DNA of 43,640 nucleotides from Muribaculaceae bacterium Zag1. Lineage in GTDB: Bacteria > Bacteroidota > Bacteroidia > Bacteroidales > Muribaculaceae. Of this stretch, positions 17,554 through 42,361 are shown in pieces; within the stretch, counting starts at the first letter, position 1; each line of letters begins with the position of its first letter. A program made the translations under genes and the position numbers. The notes beneath the pieces were generated by a model that had not been told where the DNA came from, made no database searches, and worked only from the letters and a program-made list of their open reading frames with translations. Location of the stretch: assembly GCA_002633115.1 (NCBI GenBank), contig NWBJ01000062.1, positions 1 to 43,640 on the forward strand, given 5' to 3'.

Positions 17554-17737
17554 CCCGGATGGCTACCCCGTAGGGGTTATTTCATCTAGCATATAGGTTA
17601 ACACCCGGATGGCTACCCCGTAGGGGTTGTTTCATTCTAGTGTTCAGAAGGTTAGTGAAACAACCCCTACGGGGAGGAGGGGGAGGGGTATGCGCCCATA
17701 GCTAGATGAAATAACCCCTACGGGGTAGCCATCCGGG
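17554..17737. repeat. Inverted-repeat cluster, family E (CCCCGTAGGGG hairpins)
   Basis: A 37-base segment at 17554-17590 recurs as a perfect reverse complement at 17701-17737. Inside lie a second direct copy (17604-17640) and its shorter complement (about 17656-17674). Each copy contains its own small hairpin, ACCCC-GTA-GGGGT, and carries CCGGATGGCTACC. The whole could fold as a nested cruciform. It lies between the GSCFA gene and the oxalate cluster and probably acts as a 3'-end structure or is a mobile repeat. Confidence 0.88.
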
Positions 17738-17998: not shown

Positions 17999-19288
17999 AT
18001 GAGCACATCCCCACTCAAAGGCATCAAGGTGGTTGACCTCACCGAGGTGCAGTCCGGCCCTTCGTGCACTCAAATGCTGGCATGGCTTGGCGCCGATGTA
18101 ATCAAAGTAGAACGCCCCGGCGTAGGCGATGCAACTCGTAAAGAGCTCCAGTACGACCCCAAACTCCCCAGCTACTATTTCTTACAACTCAACAGTGACA
18201 AGAAGTCAATCACACTCGACCTGAAGAGCCCCGGTGGAAAAGAAATCCTCACCAAGCTCATCAAGGGCGCCGATATGTTTATTGAGAATTTCCACCCGGG
18301 AGCTGCCGATAAGCTGGGATTCTCATGGGAAGCTGTACATGCCATCAACCCTAAGTGCATCTATGGCACTATCAAGGGATTCCCCCTATCTTCTAGATTT
18401 AAGGATCTCAAAGCCTACGAGCCTATTGCCCAAGTGACTGGCGCTGCTGCCACCACAACTGGTTGGTATGAAGGCCCCAACAACTTCCCCACTCAAAGCG
18501 GTGCTGCTCTTGGTGATTCCAACACCGGTATGCATCTGCTAATAGGTCTCTTGGCTGCATTGCAACTACGCAACCAGACTGGCGAAGGCACTTATGTATA
18601 TCAATCCATGCACAATGCTTGCCTCAACCTATGCCGCATCAAAACACGCGACCAACTCACCCTGGACAAAATTGGATATCTCACCCAATATCCACAGTAT
18701 CCCAATGGCAAATTCGGTGACACTGTGCCTCGTGCTGGCAACATCGAAGGTGGCGGTGTGCTTGGTTGGACCTACAAGTGCAAGAACTGGGAGACAGATG
18801 ACAATGACTACGTATATGTCATCCTCCAACGCGGTGAAAAAGACTTTGAGAAAGCTTGCAAGGCCCTCGGCTTTGAGGATTGGCTCACCAATCCCGACTT
18901 CGCCACAGCTGATGCTCGCGACCGCCACAAACAACAAGTGTGGGCTCGCATTCAAGAGTTCTGCATCACCAAGTCGAAATATGAGGTGACAGAAATCTTG
19001 GGTCCAGCCGGTGTGCCTTGCGGCCCAGTGATTACTACAAAAGAGCTTATGACTGACCAAAGCCTCTATGATGGCAACACCTTGGTGAAGATTAACCAAG
19101 GAGGCGGTACAGGCGAATTTGTCACCGTGGGCTGCCCATTCACCATCAGCGGTTATACTCCAACATACGGGCCATGCCCCGAACTCGGCGGCGACACCGA
19201 CAAGATTCTACGCGATCTGGGATATACCGATGAGCAAATCGCTGAGTTTGCCAAGAGTGGAGCTACAACTAATAGCGCTGAAGGATAA
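17999..19288 (+). CDS. frc: Formyl-CoA:oxalate CoA-transferase
   Basis: A 429-residue class III CoA-transferase that moves CoA from formyl-CoA to oxalate, giving oxalyl-CoA and formate. Recognised by VQSGPSCTQMLAWLGADVIKVE at the N-terminus (Gln18), WYEGPNNFPTQSGAALGDS with the catalytic Asp at 173, and GWTYKCKNWETD in the second half, all close to the Oxalobacter enzyme as I remember it. The glycine loop that closes over the active site reads EGGGVLGW, where the Oxalobacter enzyme has Gln-Pro after the glycines. Length is normal. The gene directly below is oxc, so the oxalyl-CoA cycle is complete. A 14-bp hairpin follows the stop. Confidence 0.95.
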   Translation: MSTSPLKGIKVVDLTEVQSGPSCTQMLAWLGADVIKVERPGVGDATRKELQYDPKLPSYYFLQLNSDKKSITLDLKSPGGKEILTKLIKGADMFIENFHPGAADKLGFSWEAVHAINPKCIYGTIKGFPLSSRFKDLKAYEPIAQVTGAAATTTGWYEGPNNFPTQSGAALGDSNTGMHLLIGLLAALQLRNQTGEGTYVYQSMHNACLNLCRIKTRDQLTLDKIGYLTQYPQYPNGKFGDTVPRAGNIEGGGVLGWTYKCKNWETDDNDYVYVILQRGEKDFEKACKALGFEDWLTNPDFATADARDRHKQQVWARIQEFCITKSKYEVTEILGPAGVPCGPVITTKELMTDQSLYDGNTLVKINQGGGTGEFVTVGCPFTISGYTPTYGPCPELGGDTDKILRDLGYTDEQIAEFAKSGATTNSAEG

Positions 19289-19301
19289 TCCTACCCAATA
19301 C

Positions 19302-19337
19302 AAGCGGTTGCGCTACCAGTAATTAGCGCAACCGCTT
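19302..19337 (+). terminator. Hairpin between frc and oxc
   Basis: AAGCGGTTGCGCTA (19302-19315) and TAGCGCAACCGCTT (19324-19337) form a perfect 14-bp stem with an 8-base loop, followed only by ACCTTTTCC. The weak T-run suggests partial termination or a processing/stabilising structure inside the operon. Confidence 0.7.
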
Positions 19338-19381
19338 ACCTTTTCCTAATCCTAAATATCTCATTTTATACAAAGTTAAGA

Positions 19382-21121
19382 ATGGCAACACCTAATAATA
19401 CTAACCCTAACCCCGCTGCTGCGCCATCCCCTAAGACTGATTTGACAGGTATGCATCTTCTGGCCAATGCACTTAAGGAGAATGGAGTAGAAGTGGTATT
19501 TGGTTTGGTCGGAATCCCAGTCACCGAGGTGGCATACTGTCTGCAGTTGGTTGGCATCAGATTCATAGGATTCAGATTTGAGCAACAAGCCGGTATGGCT
19601 GCTGCCACCTACGGTTACCTAACAAAAAAGCCAGGTATCCTCCTTACTGTAAGCTCTATGGGCTTTCTCAATGGACTGACTGCCACCACGAATGCAACAG
19701 TCAATTGCTATCCAATGATCCAAATATCGGGTTCCAGCGACCGCGCCGCAGTCGACTTGGAGCAAGGGACTTATGAGGGACTTGACCAACTCAATATAGC
19801 CAAACCGTTGGTAAAAGCTGCATATAGAGTAAACCGTACTGAAGATATCCCTACTGGTGTGGCTCGTGCACTAAGAGCCGCTCTAAGCGGGCGCCCTGGC
19901 GGTGTGTACTTAGACATGACTGTTCCGGCTTTGGGCGGCATTATGAGCAAAGAGGAGGCTGCTAAAATCACTTACAAGGTGGTTGACCCTGCCCCTAAAC
20001 AATATCCTTCGCAACAAGCCGTAGACCGCGCAATGGAGTTGTTGGCAACAGCTAAAAAGCCTGTGATCGTGCTTGGCAAAGGCGCAGCCTATTCTCAAAA
20101 CGATGACTTGATTAAGGAATGGGTTGAAAAGACTCAAATTCCTTATTATCCAATGTCCATGGCCAAGGGATTGCTGCCTGACAATCATCCACTGTCAGCT
20201 CTTTCGGCTCGTTCTATGATCATGGAGCAAGCTGACGTAGTAATCCTCTTGGGTGCTCGTCTCAATTGGCTCCTTTCACGTGGCCACGGTAAGTGGAACC
20301 CTGACAACAAGTATATTCAACTTGATATTGATCCAGAGGAAATAGATTGCAATCGTCCAATCGCAGCCCCAGTAATTGGCGACATAGGTGCCTCTCTTGA
20401 GATGATGCTGGCAGCCCTGCCAAAATATCCTCTGGCTGACCACAGCGCTTGGGTAAAAGAGATACAAGAAAAGAGCAAGGAAGCTAATGCTTGGATGCAA
20501 TCCAAATTGGCTCCATCGCCCGAGCCAATGGACCATTGGGATGCATTGCGCGCCGCAAAGAAAGTGCTGGAATCCCATCCCGACGTATTGTTGGTCAACG
20601 AGGGGGCCAACACCCTTGACGACTGCCGCGATGCCATTGATTTCTTCCAGCCTCGCAAGCGCATTGATTGCGCTACTTGGGCCATTATGGGAATGGGCGC
20701 CGGCAGTGCTATTGGAGCGGCCATAGCCACTGGCAAACCTGTGGTGACAATTCAGGGCGATTCAGCCTTTGGATTCTCAGGCATGGATGTAGCCACGATG
20801 TGTCGCTTCAAGCTCCCCATTACCGTTTGCGTATTCAACAACGGTGGCATCTACAACAACATTGGCGTGAACCCATCACATAATGGCGATCCAGCCCCAA
20901 CCACTCTTGATCTTAATGCCCATTACGAGAAAATCATGGAGGCATTCGGTGGCAAAGGTACATACGTCACCACTCCGGAGGAGTATGAGGCAGCCTTAGA
21001 GGCTGGTATCGCCTCGGGTGAGCCTAATCTGATTTGCGTCCAACTCGCTGGCAATGCTGGCAAAGAGAGTGGGCACATTGGGTACCTTAATCCTCAGACT
21101 TTGATTGATTTCACGGTTTGA
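19382..21121 (+). CDS. oxc: Oxalyl-CoA decarboxylase
   Basis: A 579-residue thiamine-diphosphate enzyme that converts oxalyl-CoA to formyl-CoA and CO2; formyl-CoA returns to Frc. Seen: the cofactor-activating Glu67 in FRFEQQAG, GSSDRAAVDLEQGTYEGLDQ (substrate region), IVLGKGAAYSQ, GARLNWLLSRGHGKW, VNEGANTLDD, and the ThDP/Mg site GDSAFGFSG (Asp460) to NNGGIY (about 487-492). These are the family landmarks rather than those of generic acetolactate synthases. The C-terminal lid reads ESGHIGYLNP, where Oxalobacter has Arg in place of His. An N-terminal Pro/Ala/Asn stretch of about 20 residues precedes the fold. Cytosolic, proton-consuming. Confidence 0.96.
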   Translation: MATPNNTNPNPAAAPSPKTDLTGMHLLANALKENGVEVVFGLVGIPVTEVAYCLQLVGIRFIGFRFEQQAGMAAATYGYLTKKPGILLTVSSMGFLNGLTATTNATVNCYPMIQISGSSDRAAVDLEQGTYEGLDQLNIAKPLVKAAYRVNRTEDIPTGVARALRAALSGRPGGVYLDMTVPALGGIMSKEEAAKITYKVVDPAPKQYPSQQAVDRAMELLATAKKPVIVLGKGAAYSQNDDLIKEWVEKTQIPYYPMSMAKGLLPDNHPLSALSARSMIMEQADVVILLGARLNWLLSRGHGKWNPDNKYIQLDIDPEEIDCNRPIAAPVIGDIGASLEMMLAALPKYPLADHSAWVKEIQEKSKEANAWMQSKLAPSPEPMDHWDALRAAKKVLESHPDVLLVNEGANTLDDCRDAIDFFQPRKRIDCATWAIMGMGAGSAIGAAIATGKPVVTIQGDSAFGFSGMDVATMCRFKLPITVCVFNNGGIYNNIGVNPSHNGDPAPTTLDLNAHYEKIMEAFGGKGTYVTTPEEYEAALEAGIASGEPNLICVQLAGNAGKESGHIGYLNPQTLIDFTV

Positions 21122-21132
21122 CATCCTCATAC

Positions 21133-21165
21133 GGGAATCTCCCAATTTCTGTTTGGGAGATTCCC
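21133..21165 (+). terminator. Hairpin between oxc and the AEC gene
   Basis: GGGAATCTCCCA (21133-21144) and TGGGAGATTCCC (21154-21165) form a perfect 12-bp stem with a 9-base loop. There is no T-run, so it looks more like an mRNA-stabilising or attenuating element than a full terminator. Confidence 0.6.
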
Positions 21166-21211
21166 TACTCCACTCATCAACTCCTAAAATTCAACTTAAA
21201 ACTATTTGTTT

Positions 21212-22219
21212 ATGACACACGGAATGGACATGGGCCATATCATCATCTATGCTATTGTGCCCATTATAGTAGTCATGGGAGCAGGGTTCATTGCGGGAAA
21301 GAAAGGCGCTTTTGATGGTTCATCGTCAAAAATTCTCAACAAGGTTGTGCTTGATTTCGCCCTCCCTGCTGCCCTGTTCATATCAATTGTCACGGTCAAA
21401 CCCGATGAATTGCTTAAGTACGTGAAGTTGTCAGTAATCTCATTAGTGGTGATTATGGCATGCTTCATGGCTGTATATTATATTTATCGATATTGGTTTA
21501 AAGCTGGAGCTGCCAATGCAGCAGTTATGGCTCTTATTAGTGGTTCTCCTACCATTGGATTCCTTGGTTTTGCGGTTTTGGAGCCTATATTCGATGCTAC
21601 CGTTGGTCTGCCCGCTGTTGCGTTGGTAGTTGCTATCGTAGGCATTGTGGTCAATGCTGTAGGCATCCCCGTAGGCTTGTCCCTGCTTAACTCGGCCGAT
21701 GCCGAGATGGCCGCAAAGAGAAATGGAGGCAAAAAGCCCTCATTCTGGGGGCCAGTGATTCACGCTCTGGCACAACCTGTGGCCTGGGCTCCTATATTGG
21801 CAGTGGTGATGGTGTGCGTAGGATTCAATTGGCCAGAGGATTTGAGCCCGTCATTTGACCTCATAAAGAAAGCTAACGCCTCAGTAGCCGTGTTTGCAGC
21901 TGGTATCACCTTGTCGAGCGTTAAAGTCACTATCGATTGGCAAGCAATCTGCGGTTCGATCCTCAAACTTATAGTAATGCCTTTGCTGCTATTGGTGGTA
22001 GGAATAATCTTCAAGATGGACTATTGGAATTTGCAGATGCTGGTAGTGGCCGGTGTTCTCCCCCCAGCATTCTCAGGCATCATTATCGCCGATGAATATT
22101 CTACTTATGTAGCAAGAGGCACCTCATCCCTAGCCTTATCAGTCATCCTATTCATGGGATTTTGCCCATTGTGGATATGGATTACCGATGTATGCGCTCA
22201 CCACTTCTTGCCTATGTGA
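21212..22219 (+). CDS. AEC family transporter, candidate oxalate/formate carrier
   Basis: A 335-residue membrane protein of the auxin efflux carrier family, with about ten hydrophobic segments in two halves and a polar central loop (NSADAEMAAKRNGGKK). Family features seen: an N-terminal KILNKVVLDFALPAALF and ALISGSPTIGFLGFAVL, and a C-terminal AGVLPPAFSGIIIADEYST. I prefer the ATG at 21212 over a TTG six bases earlier. AEC members include malonate and other dicarboxylate carriers. Placed between oxc and PFOR, it is the natural candidate for oxalate uptake or oxalate/formate exchange, replacing the unrelated OxlT of Oxalobacter. The substrate is inferred from context only. Confidence 0.88.
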   Translation: MTHGMDMGHIIIYAIVPIIVVMGAGFIAGKKGAFDGSSSKILNKVVLDFALPAALFISIVTVKPDELLKYVKLSVISLVVIMACFMAVYYIYRYWFKAGAANAAVMALISGSPTIGFLGFAVLEPIFDATVGLPAVALVVAIVGIVVNAVGIPVGLSLLNSADAEMAAKRNGGKKPSFWGPVIHALAQPVAWAPILAVVMVCVGFNWPEDLSPSFDLIKKANASVAVFAAGITLSSVKVTIDWQAICGSILKLIVMPLLLLVVGIIFKMDYWNLQMLVVAGVLPPAFSGIIIADEYSTYVARGTSSLALSVILFMGFCPLWIWITDVCAHHFLPM

Positions 22220-22254
22220 GGATTAAAATGTTTAGCCGTTAATTTCCGCCTACT

Positions 22255-25200
22255 ATGTTAAAGATAATGGACGGCTGCGAAGCGGCCACCTATGTTGCCT
22301 ACGCCCTTAGCGACGTAGGCACTATTTATCCTATTACTCCTATAGCCGAGATGGGACAACTCGCTCAGCGATGGGGGCTCATCGAGGGTCGACGCAATCT
22401 TATGGGCCAAACCATGGATGTACGCGAGATGGAAAGCGAATTAGGCGCAGCGGGTGCTACGCATGGCGCTGCTGCAGCTGGTGCCTTGGCCACTACATTT
22501 ACTTGCTCCCAGGGATTATTGCTGATGATACCCAACATGTACAAAATAGCGGGCGAGCAATTGCCTGCGGTGTTTCATGTGGGAACACGATCTATTGCCA
22601 GCCACGCACTGAGTATCTTTGGCGATCATCAAGATGTAATGGCATGTCGCGCCACCGGTTTTGCCTTTTTAGCCTCGGCCACTGTGCAAGAGACCATGGA
22701 TCTTGCATTAGTTGCCCATTTGGCCGCAATAGACGGGAGTCTCCCCATAGTGCATTTTATGGATGGTTGGCGCACCAGCAATGAATACGCCACTATTGAC
22801 ACCATCCCTTATGAAACTATGGCTACTTTGGTTAATTGGGATAAGGTAAAAGCTATTAGGAAACGTGGCCTAAACCCTGAACGCCCCATAGCGAGAGGCT
22901 CAGCGCAAAATCCAGGGGTGTATTTTCAAAATCGCGAAGCATGCAATCCACTTTATAACGACTTCCCTGCTATCGTGCAGAATGCAATGGATAGGGTTGG
23001 GAAAGCCATTGGTCGCTCTTATCATTTGGTGGATTATTATGGAGCCCCCGATGCCGAAAGGGTAATAGTAGTGATGGGTTCAGCTGCTGAGGTCTGCAAA
23101 GAAGCTTTAAACCATAAAGAGGGAGAGAAAGTTGGAGTAATTCAGGTGCGACTTTTCCAGCCTTTCCCTACTAAGCAATTGATTGATGCGCTGCCAAAGG
23201 CAGTAAAACGAATAGCTGTGCTAGATCGGACAAAAGAACCCGGTGCCATAGCCGAACCTTTATGCCTATCTGTCACAGCTGCTGTGCATCGCAGCGGCCA
23301 AGACATAAAGGTGATTGGTGGACGATATGGGTTGTCGAGCAAGAATTTTGATTCATCGATGGCTTGGGCTGTTTGGGACTACCTCAACCAAGCCGAACCG
23401 AAAGATGAATTCACTGTTGGCATTGACGATGATGTGACCCACTTGTCAATACCCATACAACCTCTGCCCATCACTACTCCAGAGACTTACAATGCCGTCT
23501 TTTATGGCATGGGGGCCGATGGCACTGTTGGAGGCGTAAAATTGGCAGCTCATATAGCGAGCCAGTCTGCTGGCCTTTATGCTCAGGCATACTTTAACTA
23601 CTCTGCCAAAAAGAGCGGAGGATACACTCTATCGCAACTGCGATTAGGCCATCACCCAATATCTACGCTTTATGACATTGAACGCGCCCATCTGGTGAGT
23701 TGCAACAAGGCTACCTACATCTATCGTTTTGATGTCTTGTCGACTCTGCTTCCCGAAGGAATCTTTCTCCTAAACTGTCCTTGGGATTTGGATACCCTTA
23801 GGTACAAATTACCTAATGCGATGAAAAAGCGTCTAAAGGAGCTCAATGCTAAGATGTATACCATCGATGCAGATGCTATTTCTATGGCAGTTGGGTTGGA
23901 TGTGCGTATCAACATGGTGATGATTACAGCGTTTCTCAACCTCTGTAATGTTCTCAATCTAAATAAATGTCGTGAGGAATTATTGACTTTAGTTAGAAAA
24001 ACATATATGCACGAGGGGGGCACTGTTGTCGATTCCAACATCAAGGCAATTGAGGAAGCTATCTCAGCTCTCAAAGAAATAGATGTTGATTCATTAGCTC
24101 CCAACTTGCCTCAGTCGCTGCCTCAACCCGAATCCATATCCAATGGTATGCCTCCGACCTCGGAGGCAACTATAGAATTTGTCGACAAGGTAGCCCGCAA
24201 TTGCTTTGAGCTCCTGGGCGACAAATTGCCCGTATCGGCTTTTGCTCCCGATGGAGAGGTGCCTCCTGGCACAACGGCTTTCGAGAAGAGGCGAATAGCC
24301 CAAAAAGTCCCTGTGTGGGATCCGCAAAAATGCGTAACTTGCACAGAATGTTCGCTTGTCTGCGCCCACGCAGCCATTAGGCCCATCCTGATGGACGAAG
24401 CCGAAGCCGCTGCAGCTCCCTTTGAATCTATTACCCCAAAAGACGGCTTGCAAGGATACAGGTTCAGAATTCAAGTTTTCGCAGAGGATTGCACAGGGTG
24501 TGGGTCTTGCGCCAATATCTGTCCTGGGCATGCCTTGGATATGCAACCGGCTCAACCTCAATGGGAAGAACAGCGACCAAATGTTGATTATGCTTGCAAA
24601 CATGTCAGTTGGAAAGGCGGCATCGAGGAAAGATTCTCGGTGCGTGGCTCTCAACTCTACCAACCTCTCTTGCAATTTTCTGGAGCATGTGGTGGCTGTG
24701 GTGAGACCCCTTACGTTAAACTCCTTACCCAATTGTTTGGCGAAAGGATGATCATAGCCAATGCTACAGGTTGCTCTTCTATCTGGGGACTTTCGTACCC
24801 AAGCAACCCATATTGCTGCAATGCCCAAGGTCAGGGGCCAGCATGGGCCAATTCTTTGTTTGAGGATAATGCCGAGTATGGGTATGGAATGGCTGTGGCA
24901 GTAGAGCAACAACGCTCTCGGCTTAAACAGTGCGCTCAATACATTGCCAGTTCACCTGACTCTGCTTCTCAAATCGCAGAGGCCGCAAAAGACTGGATAG
25001 CGAGCTATGATGACCCGGAGGCAGGCCGGTTGTTAGGTAATAGATTAACTGAAATGATATCTAAATCCGGTTCTAATCTTTCAGCCGAGGAGAAGGCGAT
25101 TGTAGATAACTCTGACCTGCTCGGGTCTAAAAGCATTTGGGCAATCGGAGGCGATGGTTGGGCTTATGATATAGGGTATGCTGGGCTTGACCATGTGCTG

Positions 25201-25782
25201 GCAACTAACCAAAACATCAATGTCTTGGTGCTTGACAACGAATGTTATTCTAATACTGGCGGACAGACATCAAAAGCCACTCCCCTTGGAGCGGTAGCCA
25301 AATACTCGCCTCTGGGCAAACGTGCCTTGAAGAAAGATTTGGCGCGAATCTTAACAGCCTATACTCATATATATGTGGCGCAAGTAGCTCTCGGAGCGAA
25401 TTATGACCAGACAATCCGCGCTTTCCGTGAGGCAGAGAGTTATAATGGCCCGTCTATAGTAGTGGCTTATTGTCCCTGCATTGAGCATGGAATCCGTAAA
25501 GGCATGGGTGATTCTATCATCGAGGAGAGAAAGGCGGTAATGTGTGGTTATTGGAATTTGTTCCGTTATGACCCTCGACGCCTGGCTCAAGGATTAGACC
25601 CATTCCAAGAAGACGCTCCCGCACCTCTCGCTGCAGATTTTGCACCATTCCTCGATGGAGAGGACCGCTACGCTGATCTAAAAATGTTAGACCCTGCCGA
25701 GGCTGAATTGCTGCGTCCAGCCCTGCGCAAACACCTATATTCTATCTATCGCCTTACTGATTTGCGCTCTCGTCAATCTTAA
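22255..25782 (+). CDS. nifJ: Pyruvate:ferredoxin (flavodoxin) oxidoreductase, single chain
   Basis: A 1175-residue homodimeric-type PFOR: pyruvate plus CoA to acetyl-CoA, CO2 and reduced ferredoxin, reversible. Domain order is normal. YPITP at 25-29 holds the conserved Thr28, though the usual following SSPM reads IAEM. IFGDHQDVM and ALNPERP-type segments (here GLNPERP) lie in the first half. Two [4Fe-4S] motifs start near Cys693 (CVTCTECSLVC) and Cys746 (CTGCGSCANIC). The proximal-cluster CGGCGE comes next. The ThDP site SNTGGQ is near 999, and the C-terminal CPCIEHGI closes the pattern. All cluster cysteines appear present. It follows the AEC gene by 35 bases with no hairpin, so it is likely co-transcribed with the oxalate genes. 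A related 2-oxoacid specificity cannot be excluded. Confidence 0.94.
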   Translation: MLKIMDGCEAATYVAYALSDVGTIYPITPIAEMGQLAQRWGLIEGRRNLMGQTMDVREMESELGAAGATHGAAAAGALATTFTCSQGLLLMIPNMYKIAGEQLPAVFHVGTRSIASHALSIFGDHQDVMACRATGFAFLASATVQETMDLALVAHLAAIDGSLPIVHFMDGWRTSNEYATIDTIPYETMATLVNWDKVKAIRKRGLNPERPIARGSAQNPGVYFQNREACNPLYNDFPAIVQNAMDRVGKAIGRSYHLVDYYGAPDAERVIVVMGSAAEVCKEALNHKEGEKVGVIQVRLFQPFPTKQLIDALPKAVKRIAVLDRTKEPGAIAEPLCLSVTAAVHRSGQDIKVIGGRYGLSSKNFDSSMAWAVWDYLNQAEPKDEFTVGIDDDVTHLSIPIQPLPITTPETYNAVFYGMGADGTVGGVKLAAHIASQSAGLYAQAYFNYSAKKSGGYTLSQLRLGHHPISTLYDIERAHLVSCNKATYIYRFDVLSTLLPEGIFLLNCPWDLDTLRYKLPNAMKKRLKELNAKMYTIDADAISMAVGLDVRINMVMITAFLNLCNVLNLNKCREELLTLVRKTYMHEGGTVVDSNIKAIEEAISALKEIDVDSLAPNLPQSLPQPESISNGMPPTSEATIEFVDKVARNCFELLGDKLPVSAFAPDGEVPPGTTAFEKRRIAQKVPVWDPQKCVTCTECSLVCAHAAIRPILMDEAEAAAAPFESITPKDGLQGYRFRIQVFAEDCTGCGSCANICPGHALDMQPAQPQWEEQRPNVDYACKHVSWKGGIEERFSVRGSQLYQPLLQFSGACGGCGETPYVKLLTQLFGERMIIANATGCSSIWGLSYPSNPYCCNAQGQGPAWANSLFEDNAEYGYGMAVAVEQQRSRLKQCAQYIASSPDSASQIAEAAKDWIASYDDPEAGRLLGNRLTEMISKSGSNLSAEEKAIVDNSDLLGSKSIWAIGGDGWAYDIGYAGLDHVLATNQNINVLVLDNECYSNTGGQTSKATPLGAVAKYSPLGKRALKKDLARILTAYTHIYVAQVALGANYDQTIRAFREAESYNGPSIVVAYCPCIEHGIRKGMGDSIIEERKAVMCGYWNLFRYDPRRLAQGLDPFQEDAPAPLAADFAPFLDGEDRYADLKMLDPAEAELLRPALRKHLYSIYRLTDLRSRQS

Positions 25783-25909: not shown

Positions 25910-26196
25910 TAGATTTACAAAAGCGACAAGAGAGCCGCTTACAAGCGAGCCCAAAGATACGACCACACCAAAGCGATTGGGAAACTCGTCAATTATTACA
26001 TCCAATTCCGAGACAAGCTCGGTCAACCAATGGCGGGCCCCAGCCCGCTCCTTTGGGAGCGTGGTGCCGGCATTGCCGGCCAGGCGGATTACAAAGGTTG
26101 GCTAGCACTCAAATCTTGTCTTTCCGGAGTTTCATCGCATCCTTTGGTGTGGCTACCATACGAGCCGGAAGCCCAATCAGGCTTCCGGCTTTTTTA
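25910..26196 (+). ncRNA. Candidate structured RNA of about 285 bases
   Basis: Between a well-formed promoter and a strong terminator there is no ORF with a convincing start. Consecutive hairpins are visible: CCGAG/CTCGG (26008-26022), GCGGGC/GCCCGC (26033-26048), GCTCC/GGAGC (26047-26060) and GCCGGC/GCCGGC (26066-26080). It does not show the tmRNA tag, RNase P core or SRP loop motifs that I can recognise. One frame (from about 25920 to 26030) looks mildly protein-like but follows a TAG and lacks ATG, so a decayed gene is the alternative. It may be a free small RNA. Confidence 0.5.
26163..26196 (+). terminator. Strong intrinsic terminator
   Basis: AGCCGGAAGCC (26163-26173) pairs perfectly with GGCTTCCGGCT (26180-26190) around CAATCA, followed by TTTTTA. 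It ends the candidate RNA unit and isolates ftsE from it. Confidence 0.92.
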
Positions 26197-38421: not shown

Positions 38422-39456
38422 ATGCGCCAATATACTATAATAGATTTATTCTGCGGATGTGGTGGCCTTTCCTTAGGATTTGAGAGAGCCGGCTACAATG
38501 TAGCCCTTGCCATAGACGCGTGGCAAGATGCTCTTGAGACCTATAAGCGCAACCGACATTCTGACCATACTCTTAGAGCCGACTTGACGACCCTATCACC
38601 TAAAGATGTTCTGAATAGAATCAATGACAATAAAATAGACGTAATCATCGGAGGGCCCCCATGCCAAGGTTTTTCAGTAGCAGGTAAAAGAATCGTAGAG
38701 GATGAACGAAATACTCTCTATAAATCTTTCGTAGCATTTGTAGAGTATTTTCATCCTCGAGCATTCGTAATGGAGAATGTCCCCAATATTCTATCTATGG
38801 GTAATGGGATAGTCAGGGATCAAATTCTTAGGGATTTCCAAGCTCTGGGATATACCATTAATTATAAAGTAATGATGGCCTCGGATTATGGAGTACCTCA
38901 GAATCGCAGACGAGCGGTATTCGTGGGATTAAAAACCAATGAGTTGTTTAAATTTCCTGAGCCTCTAACTACCCCTAAGGTTACTTCGTATGAGGCCCTA
39001 TCTGATTTAACTGAAGGAACACTCAGGGAAGGAGACGAATATCCTACTTCTCCCACCTCAGATTACCAAGCATTGATGCGAGAAAACTCTACAAAGGTTT
39101 ATAACCATGAGATTACTCTCCATAATCAGCAGACCAAGGATATCATTGCCTTAGTACCGGATGGAGGTAATTATAAAGATTTGCCTCAAGAGCTTCAAGA
39201 GACGCGCAGAGTGCATATCGCTTGGACTCGGTTAAACAGCCAGCGACCAAGTTTTACCATCGATTGTGGCCATCGCCACCATTTCCATTACAAATGGAAT
39301 AGAGTGCCCACAGTGAGAGAATGCGCTAGAATACAATCATTCCCAGATGATTTTATCTTCACCCAGTCTCGTACTAGCCAATATAAACAGGTGGGCAATG
39401 CAGTACCTCCTCTTATGGCCCAAGCTATCGCCACACAACTATTGAAATATCTATGA
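38422..39456 (+). CDS. DNA cytosine-C5 methyltransferase (first)
   Basis: A 344-residue type II cytosine-C5 methyltransferase. Motif I DLFCGCGGLSLGFERAG binds SAM; motif IV GGPPCQGFS has catalytic Cys81; motif VI is ENV (118-120); motif VIII is QNRRRAVFVG; motif IX is RECARIQSFPDDF; motif X is QVGNAVPP. The target-recognition domain, between VIII and IX (about 180-285), contains SDYQALMREN and DGGNYKDLP. The recognition site cannot be deduced. Its stop overlaps the nuclease gene start (ATGA at 39453-39456). Base composition is visibly more AT-rich than the neighbouring core genes, in line with horizontal acquisition. Confidence 0.95.
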   Translation: MRQYTIIDLFCGCGGLSLGFERAGYNVALAIDAWQDALETYKRNRHSDHTLRADLTTLSPKDVLNRINDNKIDVIIGGPPCQGFSVAGKRIVEDERNTLYKSFVAFVEYFHPRAFVMENVPNILSMGNGIVRDQILRDFQALGYTINYKVMMASDYGVPQNRRRAVFVGLKTNELFKFPEPLTTPKVTSYEALSDLTEGTLREGDEYPTSPTSDYQALMRENSTKVYNHEITLHNQQTKDIIALVPDGGNYKDLPQELQETRRVHIAWTRLNSQRPSFTIDCGHRHHFHYKWNRVPTVRECARIQSFPDDFIFTQSRTSQYKQVGNAVPPLMAQAIATQLLKYL

Positions 39457-40928
39457 TTAAATTCTATAAGATACCCGATGAATACTTTCAGCGTATTCAT
39501 TTCGTCAGGCCACGATTCAAAAGCAACATCGAGAATGTGCTTTTGTATATGGCCAATGAGTGTTGTAAAATAGAAGATTGTCAATGTGAGGAATACAAAG
39601 AACGTATTACTAAAGCTATACGTATGTTCCCAGGCAATCTCACAGTGACGGATAAGACGATTTCCAATTGGCGAACCGAGATTCCAGCCCTATTTGCCTT
39701 CTATGAAGAAGACAAAGCCACTGGGATAACTAAGACATCTAAAAGTGCCCATTTCCTCCATGACTATCAGGACTTGACACAGTTTTTTAGATTTTTCTTA
39801 AGCACCTTCCAACTCCCTGGTGGCCATCTAAAGGCTAAAGATAATCTTGAATTAATCCAACGAGGAGTAAAGTTCAAGCCCGCTCGCTATATCGTAAATG
39901 TGTTGCTCGAAGGCAATGCCTTATTGTCAGAGAGTGGGAGTGAAAAAGAAATGTCTCTCTCTGCTGAAGAGGCTACCTATTGCATTCTCAATGACCTAAG
40001 AGTAACTACGGGTAAAAGAAGCCCACGCAAAACAGCCGAGTTAATCCTAAAGAATAGAAAAGAGAAGCTCAAATATCGTAACCCAAAAGATGAGCAAACA
40101 TTCAGCCTAAAAGGTACTCCTCGCACCAAGGGAGATGTGACTCGATATGCAGCTGACATATTAGACTATATGGAGATAGCTTCTCTATTGCAAAAGGAGA
40201 ATAGATACTACTATTTAGCTCCCAATCAAGAGAAATCTATTAAAGCCTTAGCCTCAGAATCCACCTATTTTACAGGTTATGATTCTCTCTACATTGACCC
40301 TAATCTCAACATCAAGCAAGTGGCTGACAAAGAGATTGACTGGTTTCAATATGTAAACGAAAATCTGAATCCAGACAAATTTAAAACAGATGTCACTACT
40401 CTCATATCAAGCGGTGAAACCATAGCAGTAATCATAGAGGAAAGGATTAAAGAAATAGTGACTTCTGAGGATACCACTAAAAAAGATGTAGGCAACATCG
40501 GAGAAACTTTAGTCCATGGTCATGAGATAGCCCGGTTGCAAATAGCAGGGTACCCGGATTTAGCTAAGTTAGTCCAAATAGTAGATAGCCCCTCTTACCA
40601 CCCTGGATTCGATATCGATAGTTTCGAGGGTGATGAGAAAGCTATACATAGGTATATAGAGGTCAAGACCACTATCAGCAAACAAAAGCTTCAAATCTTT
40701 AGCTTCCACATGTCGCCCAATGAATGGAGCGTAGCCGAAACTCATAGAAATCATTACTATGTGTATCGACTGACGTTGAGTGCTAAGGACAAGGTCCTCT
40801 ATATACTAAAGAATCCTGTGGGCCTATATAAAACTGACAAAATAGAGGCTTCGCCTCGCAACGGGATGGAAATAACATTTGATGCAACGAAATTTAAAAC
40901 AACTGAGTTATTGACATGCGCAAACTAA
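39453..40928 (+). CDS. Restriction endonuclease with C-terminal DUF3883-like domain
   Basis: A 491-residue protein between two methyltransferase genes. The C-terminal domain (about 340-480) has a PD-(D/E)xK pattern: Glu in NIGETLVHGHE, Asp in PGFDIDS, and IEVKTT with Glu403 and Lys405, then NEWSVAETHRNHYYVYRL. This resembles DUF3883 (NO VEIN C-terminal) nucleases. The N-terminal two thirds have no family I recognise; a helical region around residues 65-130 with TISNWRTEIPALFAFYEED may bind DNA. It starts on the stop of the first methyltransferase and overlaps the second by 13 bases, so all three are translationally coupled. It is most simply the restriction partner. Confidence 0.8.
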   Translation: MIKFYKIPDEYFQRIHFVRPRFKSNIENVLLYMANECCKIEDCQCEEYKERITKAIRMFPGNLTVTDKTISNWRTEIPALFAFYEEDKATGITKTSKSAHFLHDYQDLTQFFRFFLSTFQLPGGHLKAKDNLELIQRGVKFKPARYIVNVLLEGNALLSESGSEKEMSLSAEEATYCILNDLRVTTGKRSPRKTAELILKNRKEKLKYRNPKDEQTFSLKGTPRTKGDVTRYAADILDYMEIASLLQKENRYYYLAPNQEKSIKALASESTYFTGYDSLYIDPNLNIKQVADKEIDWFQYVNENLNPDKFKTDVTTLISSGETIAVIIEERIKEIVTSEDTTKKDVGNIGETLVHGHEIARLQIAGYPDLAKLVQIVDSPSYHPGFDIDSFEGDEKAIHRYIEVKTTISKQKLQIFSFHMSPNEWSVAETHRNHYYVYRLTLSAKDKVLYILKNPVGLYKTDKIEASPRNGMEITFDATKFKTTELLTCAN

Positions 40929-42361
40929 AAGTATTGTCACTGTTTTGTGGATGCGGAGGCATGGATCTGGGGATGCTCGGAGGTTTTGAATATCTGGGTC
41001 ATCCCTACCCGGAGCACCCTTTTGAGATTGTCAAGGCCTATGACAACGATCCCTATTGTACTAAAATATACGATGAGAATTTCTCTCATAAATGCGATGT
41101 GGCTGATGTGAGAGAGATAGAAATCTCTAACCTACCTGATATTGACATATTGATAGGTGGATTCCCCTGCCAGTCATTTTCTATATCTGCCCAAAACCCT
41201 CCGAGATTAGGTTATAAGGACGAGCGTGGCATGCTATTCTTTGAGATGGTAAAAATCTTAAAAGAAAAACAACCTCGATTCTTCATTGCCGAAAATGTCA
41301 AAGGCCTCCTATCAGCCAACAAGGGCCAAGCATTCCCCATGATAATCAAAGAATTTGAGGGAGCAGGATATCACGTCAAATTTAAGCTCTTAAACGCTTC
41401 TGAATATGGAGTGCCTCAAAAGAGAGAAAGAGTAATAATAGTAGGGTGTAGAGAGTCTAAAGATTTTGAGAACTATAGATTCCCTGCTCCCACCACTCGT
41501 TTCAATAAAGTCCCACTTTCTAAAGTTATCAATCCTGAGGATAATCTGAATGAAAGACTTTTCTTTAGTGAAAGAGCTGTCGCAGGCATGCTATTGGTAC
41601 GAGATAAGATGAACAAGGGAAGAGTACAAAATTTAGATGAGCCTTGTAATACCATTAGTTCTCATTTGGCTAAAGTCAGTTTAAATTCAACTGATCCTGT
41701 ATTATTGTTTGAGAATCGTTATCGTAGATTTTCGAGCACAGAGTGTGCCCGCATTCAGTCTTTCCCAGAAGATTTCAAATGGGGTTCCGTTTCGGAAGCT
41801 AAACAACTCAAAGCCATTGGTAATGCCGTACCTCCTGTGATGATGTGGCATATTGCGAAATCTCTCAGTGAAATACTTAATGCCAAAGAAAAGCCCCATG
41901 TCGATCATGTATCCACAGACTTTGATTGGCCTCAAGAGCGAATGGTTCAACTTACGCTATTCGAACCAGAAATTCTTTATATAACTTCTCTCAACAGAGA
42001 GAAACTTCTTCTTGGCTCTTGTAGGCAAGGTACCATTGAGTGGATAAAAAACAATCAATTGTACAACTATCCTATAACGGACCAAGAGCTCCAAGACCAC
42101 CCAGAACTTTTAGATGTAAAAAAAATCATCATTTTACATAAAAACAAAATGGTCGGATTCTATAATGTCCTTGATGTAGATGTGGTACTTAAACCAGAAT
42201 TGATTGGCTATGGTTATCCAATCAAAAGTTCAAAAAGATCTATGGAGTCAAAATATATTCTTTTCACCCTTTCTCCAGAGCCTCAATTAGACAAAGATAT
42301 TCCTTGGTATACCTTTTCACCCATTATAGGAAAAGGCTTAATTAGTCCTTCTAACGCTTAG
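40916..42361 (+). CDS. DNA cytosine-C5 methyltransferase (second, extended)
   Basis: A 481-residue cytosine-C5 methyltransferase with motifs I (SLFCGCGGMDLGM), IV (GGFPCQSFS, Cys85), VI (ENV, 126-128), VIII (QKRERVIIVG), IX (TECARIQSFPEDF) and X (AIGNAVPP, about 302-309). These fit in the first 330 residues. A further ~150 residues (about 332-481) follow, starting VDHVSTDFDWPQERM and containing LYITSLNREKLLLGSCRQG and KNKMVGFYNVLDV. This extension is not part of the family core; its shape vaguely recalls PUA/EVE-type base-reading domains, which is speculation. Overlap with the nuclease gene is 13 bases. Confidence 0.93.
   Translation: MRKLKVLSLFCGCGGMDLGMLGGFEYLGHPYPEHPFEIVKAYDNDPYCTKIYDENFSHKCDVADVREIEISNLPDIDILIGGFPCQSFSISAQNPPRLGYKDERGMLFFEMVKILKEKQPRFFIAENVKGLLSANKGQAFPMIIKEFEGAGYHVKFKLLNASEYGVPQKRERVIIVGCRESKDFENYRFPAPTTRFNKVPLSKVINPEDNLNERLFFSERAVAGMLLVRDKMNKGRVQNLDEPCNTISSHLAKVSLNSTDPVLLFENRYRRFSSTECARIQSFPEDFKWGSVSEAKQLKAIGNAVPPVMMWHIAKSLSEILNAKEKPHVDHVSTDFDWPQERMVQLTLFEPEILYITSLNREKLLLGSCRQGTIEWIKNNQLYNYPITDQELQDHPELLDVKKIIILHKNKMVGFYNVLDVDVVLKPELIGYGYPIKSSKRSMESKYILFTLSPEPQLDKDIPWYTFSPIIGKGLISPSNA

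Follow-up and report, generated by a model that had tools for sequence, protein, structure and literature searches.

The oxalate-catabolism gene cluster of Muribaculaceae bacterium Zag1 contains, directly behind its carrier gene, a gene for a second pyruvate:ferredoxin oxidoreductase (PFOR), and among the genomes of the family examined this type of PFOR is found only where the oxalyl-CoA decarboxylase gene (oxc) is present, whether the two genes are neighbours or not. We call the oxalate-associated type PFOR2, as opposed to the housekeeping PFOR. The cluster lies on contig NWBJ01000062.1 (GenBank assembly GCA_002633115.1), of which positions 1 to 43,640 of the forward strand were analysed (the window in what follows), in a genome of 4.46 Mb and 137 contigs that is 99.97% complete. 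Judging from its genes, we hold with moderate confidence that PFOR2 is most likely a PFOR isoenzyme dedicated to oxalate-degrading cells, i.e. a member of the oxalate module and not of general metabolism. PFOR2 is a new and well-supported partner of the oxalate operon, one that we did not find described in the open-licence literature. The four genes all lie on the forward strand, where a preliminary description had placed them and where the open reading frames between 17999 and 25782 are indeed found:

17999..19288, + strand: frc, formyl-CoA:oxalate CoA-transferase, 429 aa (TIGR03253, identity to E. coli Frc, PDB matches)
19382..21121, + strand: oxc, oxalyl-CoA decarboxylase, a thiamine diphosphate (ThDP) enzyme, 579 aa (TIGR03254, NF006721, PDB matches)
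21206..22219, + strand: AEC-family carrier, YfdV-like, 337 aa counted from TTG (PF03547; NF007384 below its cut-off)
22255..25782, + strand: PFOR2, single-chain pyruvate:ferredoxin oxidoreductase paralogue, 1175 aa (TIGR02176, clade, residues, co-occurrence with oxc)

They are separated by 93 (frc-oxc), 84 (oxc-AEC) and 35 (AEC-PFOR) bases, and the carrier has an in-frame ATG at 21212 as a possible alternative to its TTG start. Taken as a whole, the locus is best explained, and probably so, as a single oxalate-catabolism module of frc, oxc, AEC carrier and PFOR2.

PFOR2 of Zag1 passes the TIGR02176 model (1484.8-1485.2 bits, cut-off 911.35) over residues 2-1159 of its 1175, and is 48% identical to the cell's own housekeeping PFOR, a second full-length enzyme encoded on contig 86 that reaches 1940.8 bits with the same model. 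When the Zag1 PFOR was compared with 149 genomes of its family, the matches listed fell into two clearly separate groups: the 41 copies of the PFOR2 group had at least 1365 bits and at least 55% identity, the others among these matches at most 1161 bits and at most 49%. A repeat search in 20 genomes (16 family members whose matches had been absent, fragmentary or in excess, plus 4 of another family) added one PFOR2, an internally gapped copy in genome G096. This copy (C11:374956-378213), which lacks an internal stretch, shares its contig with oxc, from which it is ~145 kb away. In a tree of 73 PFORs (45 PFOR2 and 28 others, the Moorella and Desulfovibrio enzymes not included), all PFOR2 sequences fall into a single clade (support 1.0), in which the copies of genomes G225, G328, G483 and Bacteroides sp. 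UBA7335 split from those of the family; the housekeeping PFORs of Bacteroidales cluster together, and their branches are shorter than those of PFOR2.

Alignment of the same 45 PFOR2 and 28 other sequences shows that the Zag1 protein keeps the Thr of the YPITP motif, the Arg, the Glu and the stretches NATGCSSI, GDG and YSNTGGQ. R112, E62, C840, D967 and N1000 are invariant in 45/45 PFOR2, as are the stretches NATGCSS, GDG and YSNTGGQ; the YPITP Thr (T28) is retained in 39 and replaced by Ser in 6; L119 and I121 occur in all 45 and I843 in 42. We assign the catalytic and substrate roles of these residues from the PFOR of Desulfovibrio, in which L119, I121 and I843 presumably correspond to the pocket for the methyl group of pyruvate. 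Since the catalytic and substrate residues of PFOR are retained, PFOR2 most likely acts on pyruvate. At seventeen positions PFOR2 consistently departs from the 28 other PFORs, and some of these positions are beside catalytic residues (G34, E60, G110, W844, A846 and C997 among these). Residue 995 is Asn in Zag1 and Thr in the other 44 PFOR2, Asn being found at this position also in the solved multi-subunit PFOR and in oxalate oxidoreductase. An identity as oxalate oxidoreductase was considered and rejected, the scores lying far below the cut-offs (84.5 bits against 500 for NF045791, 65.3 against 590 for NF045792) and the motif being YPITP (Thr) where oxalate oxidoreductase has YPIRP (Arg).

The survey covered the 149 genomes of the family of Zag1 and 387 genomes from elsewhere in the same order. 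With a threshold of E up to 1e-100, oxc was found in 86 of the former and in 2 of the latter. PFOR2 is present in 42 of the 86 oxc-positive genomes of the family and in 0 of the 63 oxc-negative ones (hypergeometric P 2.9e-13); the association persists when stratified within genus (P 4e-5), and by genus PFOR2 occurs in 14 of 18 with oxc and in 0 of 12 without. Fragmentary oxc-negative genomes might hide pieces of PFOR2; in the five that were rechecked the PFOR pieces seem to stem from a single ordinary PFOR that has been split, although this is not proved. As a control, formate/nitrite transporters (PF01226), whose prevalence is similar to that of oxc, were found in 56 of the 86 oxc-positive and 25 of the 63 oxc-negative genomes. 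The attachment of a PFOR to the cluster, which the preliminary description had pointed out, though not as its principal claim, thus reflects an enzyme that belongs with the oxalate genes.

Adjacency is not what produces this pattern in every case. Among the 42 family genomes with PFOR2, the gene stands directly behind the AEC gene on the same strand in 25, is separated from it by one gene on the opposite strand in one (G115), and is located elsewhere in 16. Two of the 25 (G143 and G002) have a contig break inside oxc, the AEC gene and PFOR2 being on another contig. The 16 copies away from the operon are likewise all in oxc-positive genomes (P 7.9e-5); 15 of them were inspected and have varied neighbours, and that of G096 was placed by coordinates only. 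In G073 (99% complete; PFOR2 at G073:C47, locus L143) and G147 (83% complete), PFOR2 is the only PFOR found. The order frc-oxc-AEC-nifJ that had been proposed for conservation therefore stands in part: frc-oxc-AEC is constant in 42/42 genomes, as detailed below, but PFOR2 follows directly in only 25 of the 86 oxc-positive genomes, with one gene between in 1, elsewhere in 16 and not found in 44.

The same arrangement recurs outside the family. The only 2 of the 387 genomes with an oxc match, G225 and G328, both carry frc-oxc-AEC-PFOR2. PFOR2 was found in 3 of the 387 (these two and G483), all of one genus and each directly behind an AEC gene; in a further member of that genus, G417, the only PFOR is of the ordinary type, and this genome does not appear in the list of oxc matches. 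In a search of named genomes, extending beyond Bacteroidales, at least 584 relatives of oxc were confirmed, of which the best 80 were examined, many of these loci ending at contig breaks. Among the best 80, an AEC match occurs in three, all of them Bacteroidales (loci L160-L162), and a PFOR match in two: directly behind the AEC gene in Bacteroides sp. UBA7335 (L160), where frc-oxc-AEC is followed by a PFOR of the PFOR2 clade, and ~5 kb from oxc in Paraburkholderia (L172), where the PFOR is nearer to ordinary PFOR than to PFOR2.

Frc scores 572.8 bits with the equivalog model TIGR03253 (cut-off 504.2), is 52% identical to Frc of E. coli and has solved Frc/YfdW chains as its best matches in the Protein Data Bank (PDB); Oxc scores 796.1 bits with the equivalog model TIGR03254 (cut-off 739.4) and 827.9 with NF006721 (cut-off 557), is 54% identical to Oxc of E. 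coli and has oxalyl-CoA decarboxylases as its best PDB matches. By score, both proteins thus fall inside curated equivalog families, in agreement with the placement in characterised clades that had been expected of them. In the alignments of 43 Bacteroidales rows each (42 genomes, one of them twice) with E. coli, Frc D173 and Oxc E67 are invariant in 43/43 Bacteroidales rows, and the Oxc stretch GDSAFGFSG varies at one position (S in 41 rows, T in 2); all three are located in Zag1 where they had been described. We take D173 to be the catalytic Asp of Frc and E67 to be the Glu of Oxc that serves ThDP. A horizontal origin of the operon was also considered; in trees rooted on G225 and G328, Oxc and Frc of Zag1 lie inside the clade of their own family, Oxc as its first branch, with weak support (0.795), and the two gene trees agree poorly.

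One feature of Frc departs from the solved enzymes. Its glycine-rich loop (residues 247-257) reads EGGGVLG in Zag1 in place of GGGGQPG, the form present in all four solved Frc chains compared. The GGGGQ sequence, presumably an active-site loop, was taken here as one mark of type II oxalate degradation; Frc of Zag1 lacks it and yet passes the TIGR03253 equivalog model. The form EG[GS]GVLG occurs in 41 of the 43 Bacteroidales rows and E250, V254 and L255 in all 43, so that the change is lineage-wide among the aligned Bacteroidales Frc. Equivalog scores and motifs together support the presence of a type II (Frc/Oxc) oxalate module with a carrier gene in this Bacteroidales genome, as the preliminary description had maintained.

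For the carrier the best match is the YfdV model NF007384, at 278.3 bits below the cut-off of 404; relatives with the same gene order score 404.9 (L120) and 323.2 (L089) with this model. The protein passes Pfam PF03547 (147.5 bits) and is 46% identical to YfdV of E. coli over 313 residues. Presumably it is an oxalate importer or an oxalate/formate exchanger. Wherever one locus spans all three genes, namely in 42/42 genomes (40 of the family's 86 oxc-positive genomes and 2 of another family), frc, oxc and the AEC gene are on the same strand in the same order, which matches frc-oxc-yfdV of E. coli K-12; because it is constant in all 42, this order is not a matter of chance.

That a Bacteroidales genome encodes such a pathway had been put forward as widening the set of gut oxalate consumers, but this has already been reported (PMC4936053, PMC6381624, PMC5348496). 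In the available excerpts of these and related papers, frc and oxc are described in 19 of 30 genomes of S24-7 (Muribaculaceae), with a permease adjoining oxc in all 19 and the function called rare in Bacteroidales (Ormerod 2016, PMC4936053); the KEGG orthologues of both genes are counted among the family-specific functions (Lagkouvardos 2019, PMC6381624); Frc and Oxc of Bacteroidetes are detected in a mouse gut metaproteome (2017, PMC5348496) and oxc of Muribaculaceae in human metagenomes (PMC8062136); and Muribaculaceae or Muribaculum are named again as carriers of oxalate genes (PMC10258309, PMC12045624). By contrast, an excerpt on 152 human-stool genomes has the pathway of oxalate transporter, frc and oxc nearly confined to Pseudomonadota (PMC12188714). 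The skew of oxc towards this family in our survey fits the published distribution. The Muribaculaceae frc/oxc operon is real and already known from genomes and metaproteomes; since both genes are published for the family, the cluster is confirmed but is not new.

If PFOR2 is an isoenzyme of this module, as we favour, the AEC/YfdV-like carrier would bring oxalate into the cell, probably by exchange with formate; Frc, to judge from its family, would transfer CoA from formyl-CoA to oxalate with release of formate; Oxc, likewise, would convert oxalyl-CoA into formyl-CoA and CO2, consuming a proton; and PFOR2 would oxidise pyruvate, or form it in reverse, in oxalate-loaded cells. A separate isoenzyme could be needed either because oxalate, as a mimic of pyruvate, may interfere with the housekeeping PFOR, or because the cell requires extra turnover of acetyl-CoA and ferredoxin under a high flux of CoA and CO2 through Frc and Oxc. 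These are the two most plausible reasons, and the sequence cannot separate them. Both are forms of the dedicated isoenzyme and not rivals that would exclude it. Where inhibition is the reason, the housekeeping PFOR would be inhibited by imported oxalate and PFOR2 insensitive, so that PFOR2 would be an oxalate-proof copy travelling with the pathway, like a drug-insensitive copy of a drug target, in a cell that imports a pyruvate mimic in bulk. Several pyruvate enzymes are inhibited by oxalate, and such tolerance would suit an enzyme that co-occurs with oxc wherever its gene sits, that is the sole PFOR found in two genomes (G073 and G147), and that keeps its catalytic residues while the adjoining ones named above differ. 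However, 44 of the 86 oxc-positive genomes manage without PFOR2, the changes near the active site are not significantly enriched (5 of the 17 PFOR2-specific residues against 55 of 347 conserved shared ones, P 0.13, for active-site stretches picked after the alignment had been inspected), and inhibition of PFOR by oxalate was not found in the open-licence literature; we regard tolerance as possible and put it forward tentatively. Where metabolic coupling is the reason, PFOR2 would supply acetyl-CoA and reduced ferredoxin, or act as a pyruvate synthase on CO2 from Oxc, without being tolerant. In E. coli, yfdV is followed by yfdE, which encodes an acetyl-CoA:oxalate CoA-transferase, and it is a maker of acetyl-CoA, PFOR2, that sits in its place here with the substrate residues of PFOR. 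On the other hand, the Zag1 genome has no YfdE above the cut-off, the single match being Frc, and the housekeeping PFOR could serve equally, so that a paralogue would be unneeded; coupling, too, we regard as possible and propose tentatively, at about the same strength as tolerance.

Two further explanations depart from a dedicated pyruvate isoenzyme. PFOR2 might be a bystander, a surplus PFOR carried along with the operon without contributing to oxalate metabolism: adjacent genes would be gained and lost jointly without any function, and PFOR2 is missing from about half of the oxc-positive genomes (44/86). This we consider unlikely, given that the 16 non-adjacent copies are still all in oxc-positive genomes (P 7.9e-5) and that the same neighbourhood recurs in a second family. 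Or its substrate might have changed, PFOR2 acting on glyoxylate to give formyl-CoA and CO2, on formyl-CoA to give glyoxylate, or on oxalate in the manner of the oxalate oxidoreductase of Moorella. Frc takes its CoA from formyl-CoA, so that an enzyme making this compound would prime the cycle; moreover, PFOR2 stands on longer branches than the housekeeping enzyme and has signature residues of its own. Against such a change, the pocket residues L119 and I121 (45/45) and I843 (42/45) are kept and the YPITP position carries Thr in 39 and Ser in 6, where oxalate oxidoreductase has Arg, and NF045791 gives 84.5 bits against its cut-off of 500; a changed substrate therefore seems quite improbable to us. 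Bolder still, and very improbable, is the idea that PFOR2 interconverts formyl-CoA plus CO2 and glyoxylate and would thereby tie the carbon of oxalate to ferredoxin and biomass.

A number of points weigh against PFOR2 as a dedicated isoenzyme, and we gather them here. The P values take genomes as independent or stratify by genus only, so that kinship within genera remains. No PFOR2 was found in 44 of the 86 oxc-positive genomes of the family, from which it follows that PFOR2 is not needed for the pathway, and Bacteroides sp. SIG135 (L162, genome G537) has frc-oxc-AEC with no PFOR found in the genome. Conversely, G483 has PFOR2 with no oxc match found; as this genome is 71% complete and its contig begins inside the AEC gene, a lost oxc contig is likely, though not shown. 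Of the family's 86 oxc matches, 42 lie above the TIGR03254 cut-off; the remaining 44 score below it, and three of these are partial genes at contig ends. Among the oxc-positive genomes, those with a formate/nitrite transporter have PFOR2 more often than those without (34/56 against 8/30, P 0.003), and PFOR2 may for that reason track other traits too. By eye, no common motif was seen upstream of frc and of lone PFOR2 genes in 15 PFOR2 stretches and 20 of the 43 frc stretches. A link between PFOR and oxalate operons was not found in the open-licence literature (supplements excluded), which is weak evidence of absence; the lack of enrichment near the active site and of reports of PFOR inhibition by oxalate counts here as well. 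The dedicated isoenzyme nevertheless remains our preferred and most likely reading, PFOR2 being confined to oxc-positive genomes among those of the family examined.

The remaining features of the window are the following:

19302..19337, + strand: hairpin with a 14-bp stem in the frc-oxc gap (pattern match)
21133..21165, + strand: hairpin with a 13-bp stem in the oxc-AEC gap (sequence, stem search)
26162..26191, + strand: terminator-like stem of 12 pairs with a T run, ~380 bases 3' of PFOR2 (pattern match only)
17563-17585 and 17613-17635, + strand: copies of the REP-like repeat CTACCCCGTAGGGGTTRTTTCAT (pattern match)
17655-17677 and 17706-17728, - strand: copies of the REP-like repeat CTACCCCGTAGGGGTTRTTTCAT (pattern match)
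38422: C5 cytosine methylase (restriction-modification locus)
39453: BpuJI-like endonuclease with NOV_C domain (restriction-modification locus)
40916: further open reading frame clustering with the C5 cytosine methylase (BLAST)

A stem search found hairpins of comparable length but other sequence in the frc-oxc and oxc-AEC gaps of some other genomes; as the strong stems of several genomes differ in sequence and do not occur in all, the hairpins were rejected as conserved intergenic elements. Two candidate partners of the operon were likewise set aside: a formate transporter (PF01226) as a fixed partner, with none found in the Zag1 genome and a loose association with oxc only, and a YfdE-like priming enzyme, for which the only match to NF008511 (cut-off 522) in the genome is Frc at 151.4 bits. 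The repeat CTACCCCGTAGGGGTTRTTTCAT stands just upstream of frc four times, three times exactly and once with 3 mismatches. Genome-wide it has 97 + 97 matches with at most 2 mismatches, whereas its reversal, used as a control, has 0. The matches often form inverted pairs ~94 bases apart, and the repeat resembles a REPIN-type family, here in a Bacteroidales genome. At 38422-42361 of the window lies a probable restriction-modification locus.

The removal of oxalate by gut bacteria bears on the formation of kidney stones. If PFOR2 belongs to the pathway, oxalate degradation would extend into the metabolism of pyruvate and ferredoxin, oxalate-degrading Bacteroidales would have a second marker, and there would be concrete grounds to ask whether oxalate poisons PFOR. 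PFOR2 also offers a testable answer to the question why one cell keeps two PFORs. The family concerned dominates the mouse gut, according to the abstract of PMC6381624.

One of the closest known systems is the S24-7/Muribaculaceae gene pair of Ormerod (2016, PMC4936053): the excerpted account likewise places frc and oxc beside a permease gene, in the bacterial order to which Zag1 belongs, and probably describes the same locus as that of Zag1, but, unlike the Zag1 operon, mentions no PFOR in that part. With yfdXWUVE of E. coli (frc, oxc, yfdV, yfdE) the Zag1 operon shares the order frc-oxc-AEC on one strand, the proteins being 52, 54 and 46% identical; here, however, the carrier gene is followed by PFOR and not by yfdE, and no YfdE of the genome lies above the cut-off. 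In the pathway of Oxalobacter formigenes, Frc and Oxc are of the same families, Oxalobacter chains being among the PDB matches (we take 2c31 and 2vjq to be these). The Zag1 system differs from it in the glycine loop of Frc and in its AEC-type carrier, the oxalate carrier of O. formigenes, OxlT, being an antiporter of the major facilitator superfamily. The oxalate oxidoreductase of Moorella (5c4i) is of the same enzyme superfamily as PFOR2 but has separate subunits and YPIRP, whereas PFOR2 is single-chain with YPITP. Solved single-chain PFORs are the best PDB matches of PFOR2. Of these, 6cin, 1b0p and 7plm, presumably those of Moorella and Desulfovibrio, match PFOR2 over nearly its full length and share its motifs. 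From the housekeeping PFOR of Bacteroidales and the PFORs of E. coli and Paraburkholderia, PFOR2 is set apart by its own clade, by 17 signature positions and by its occurrence with oxc.

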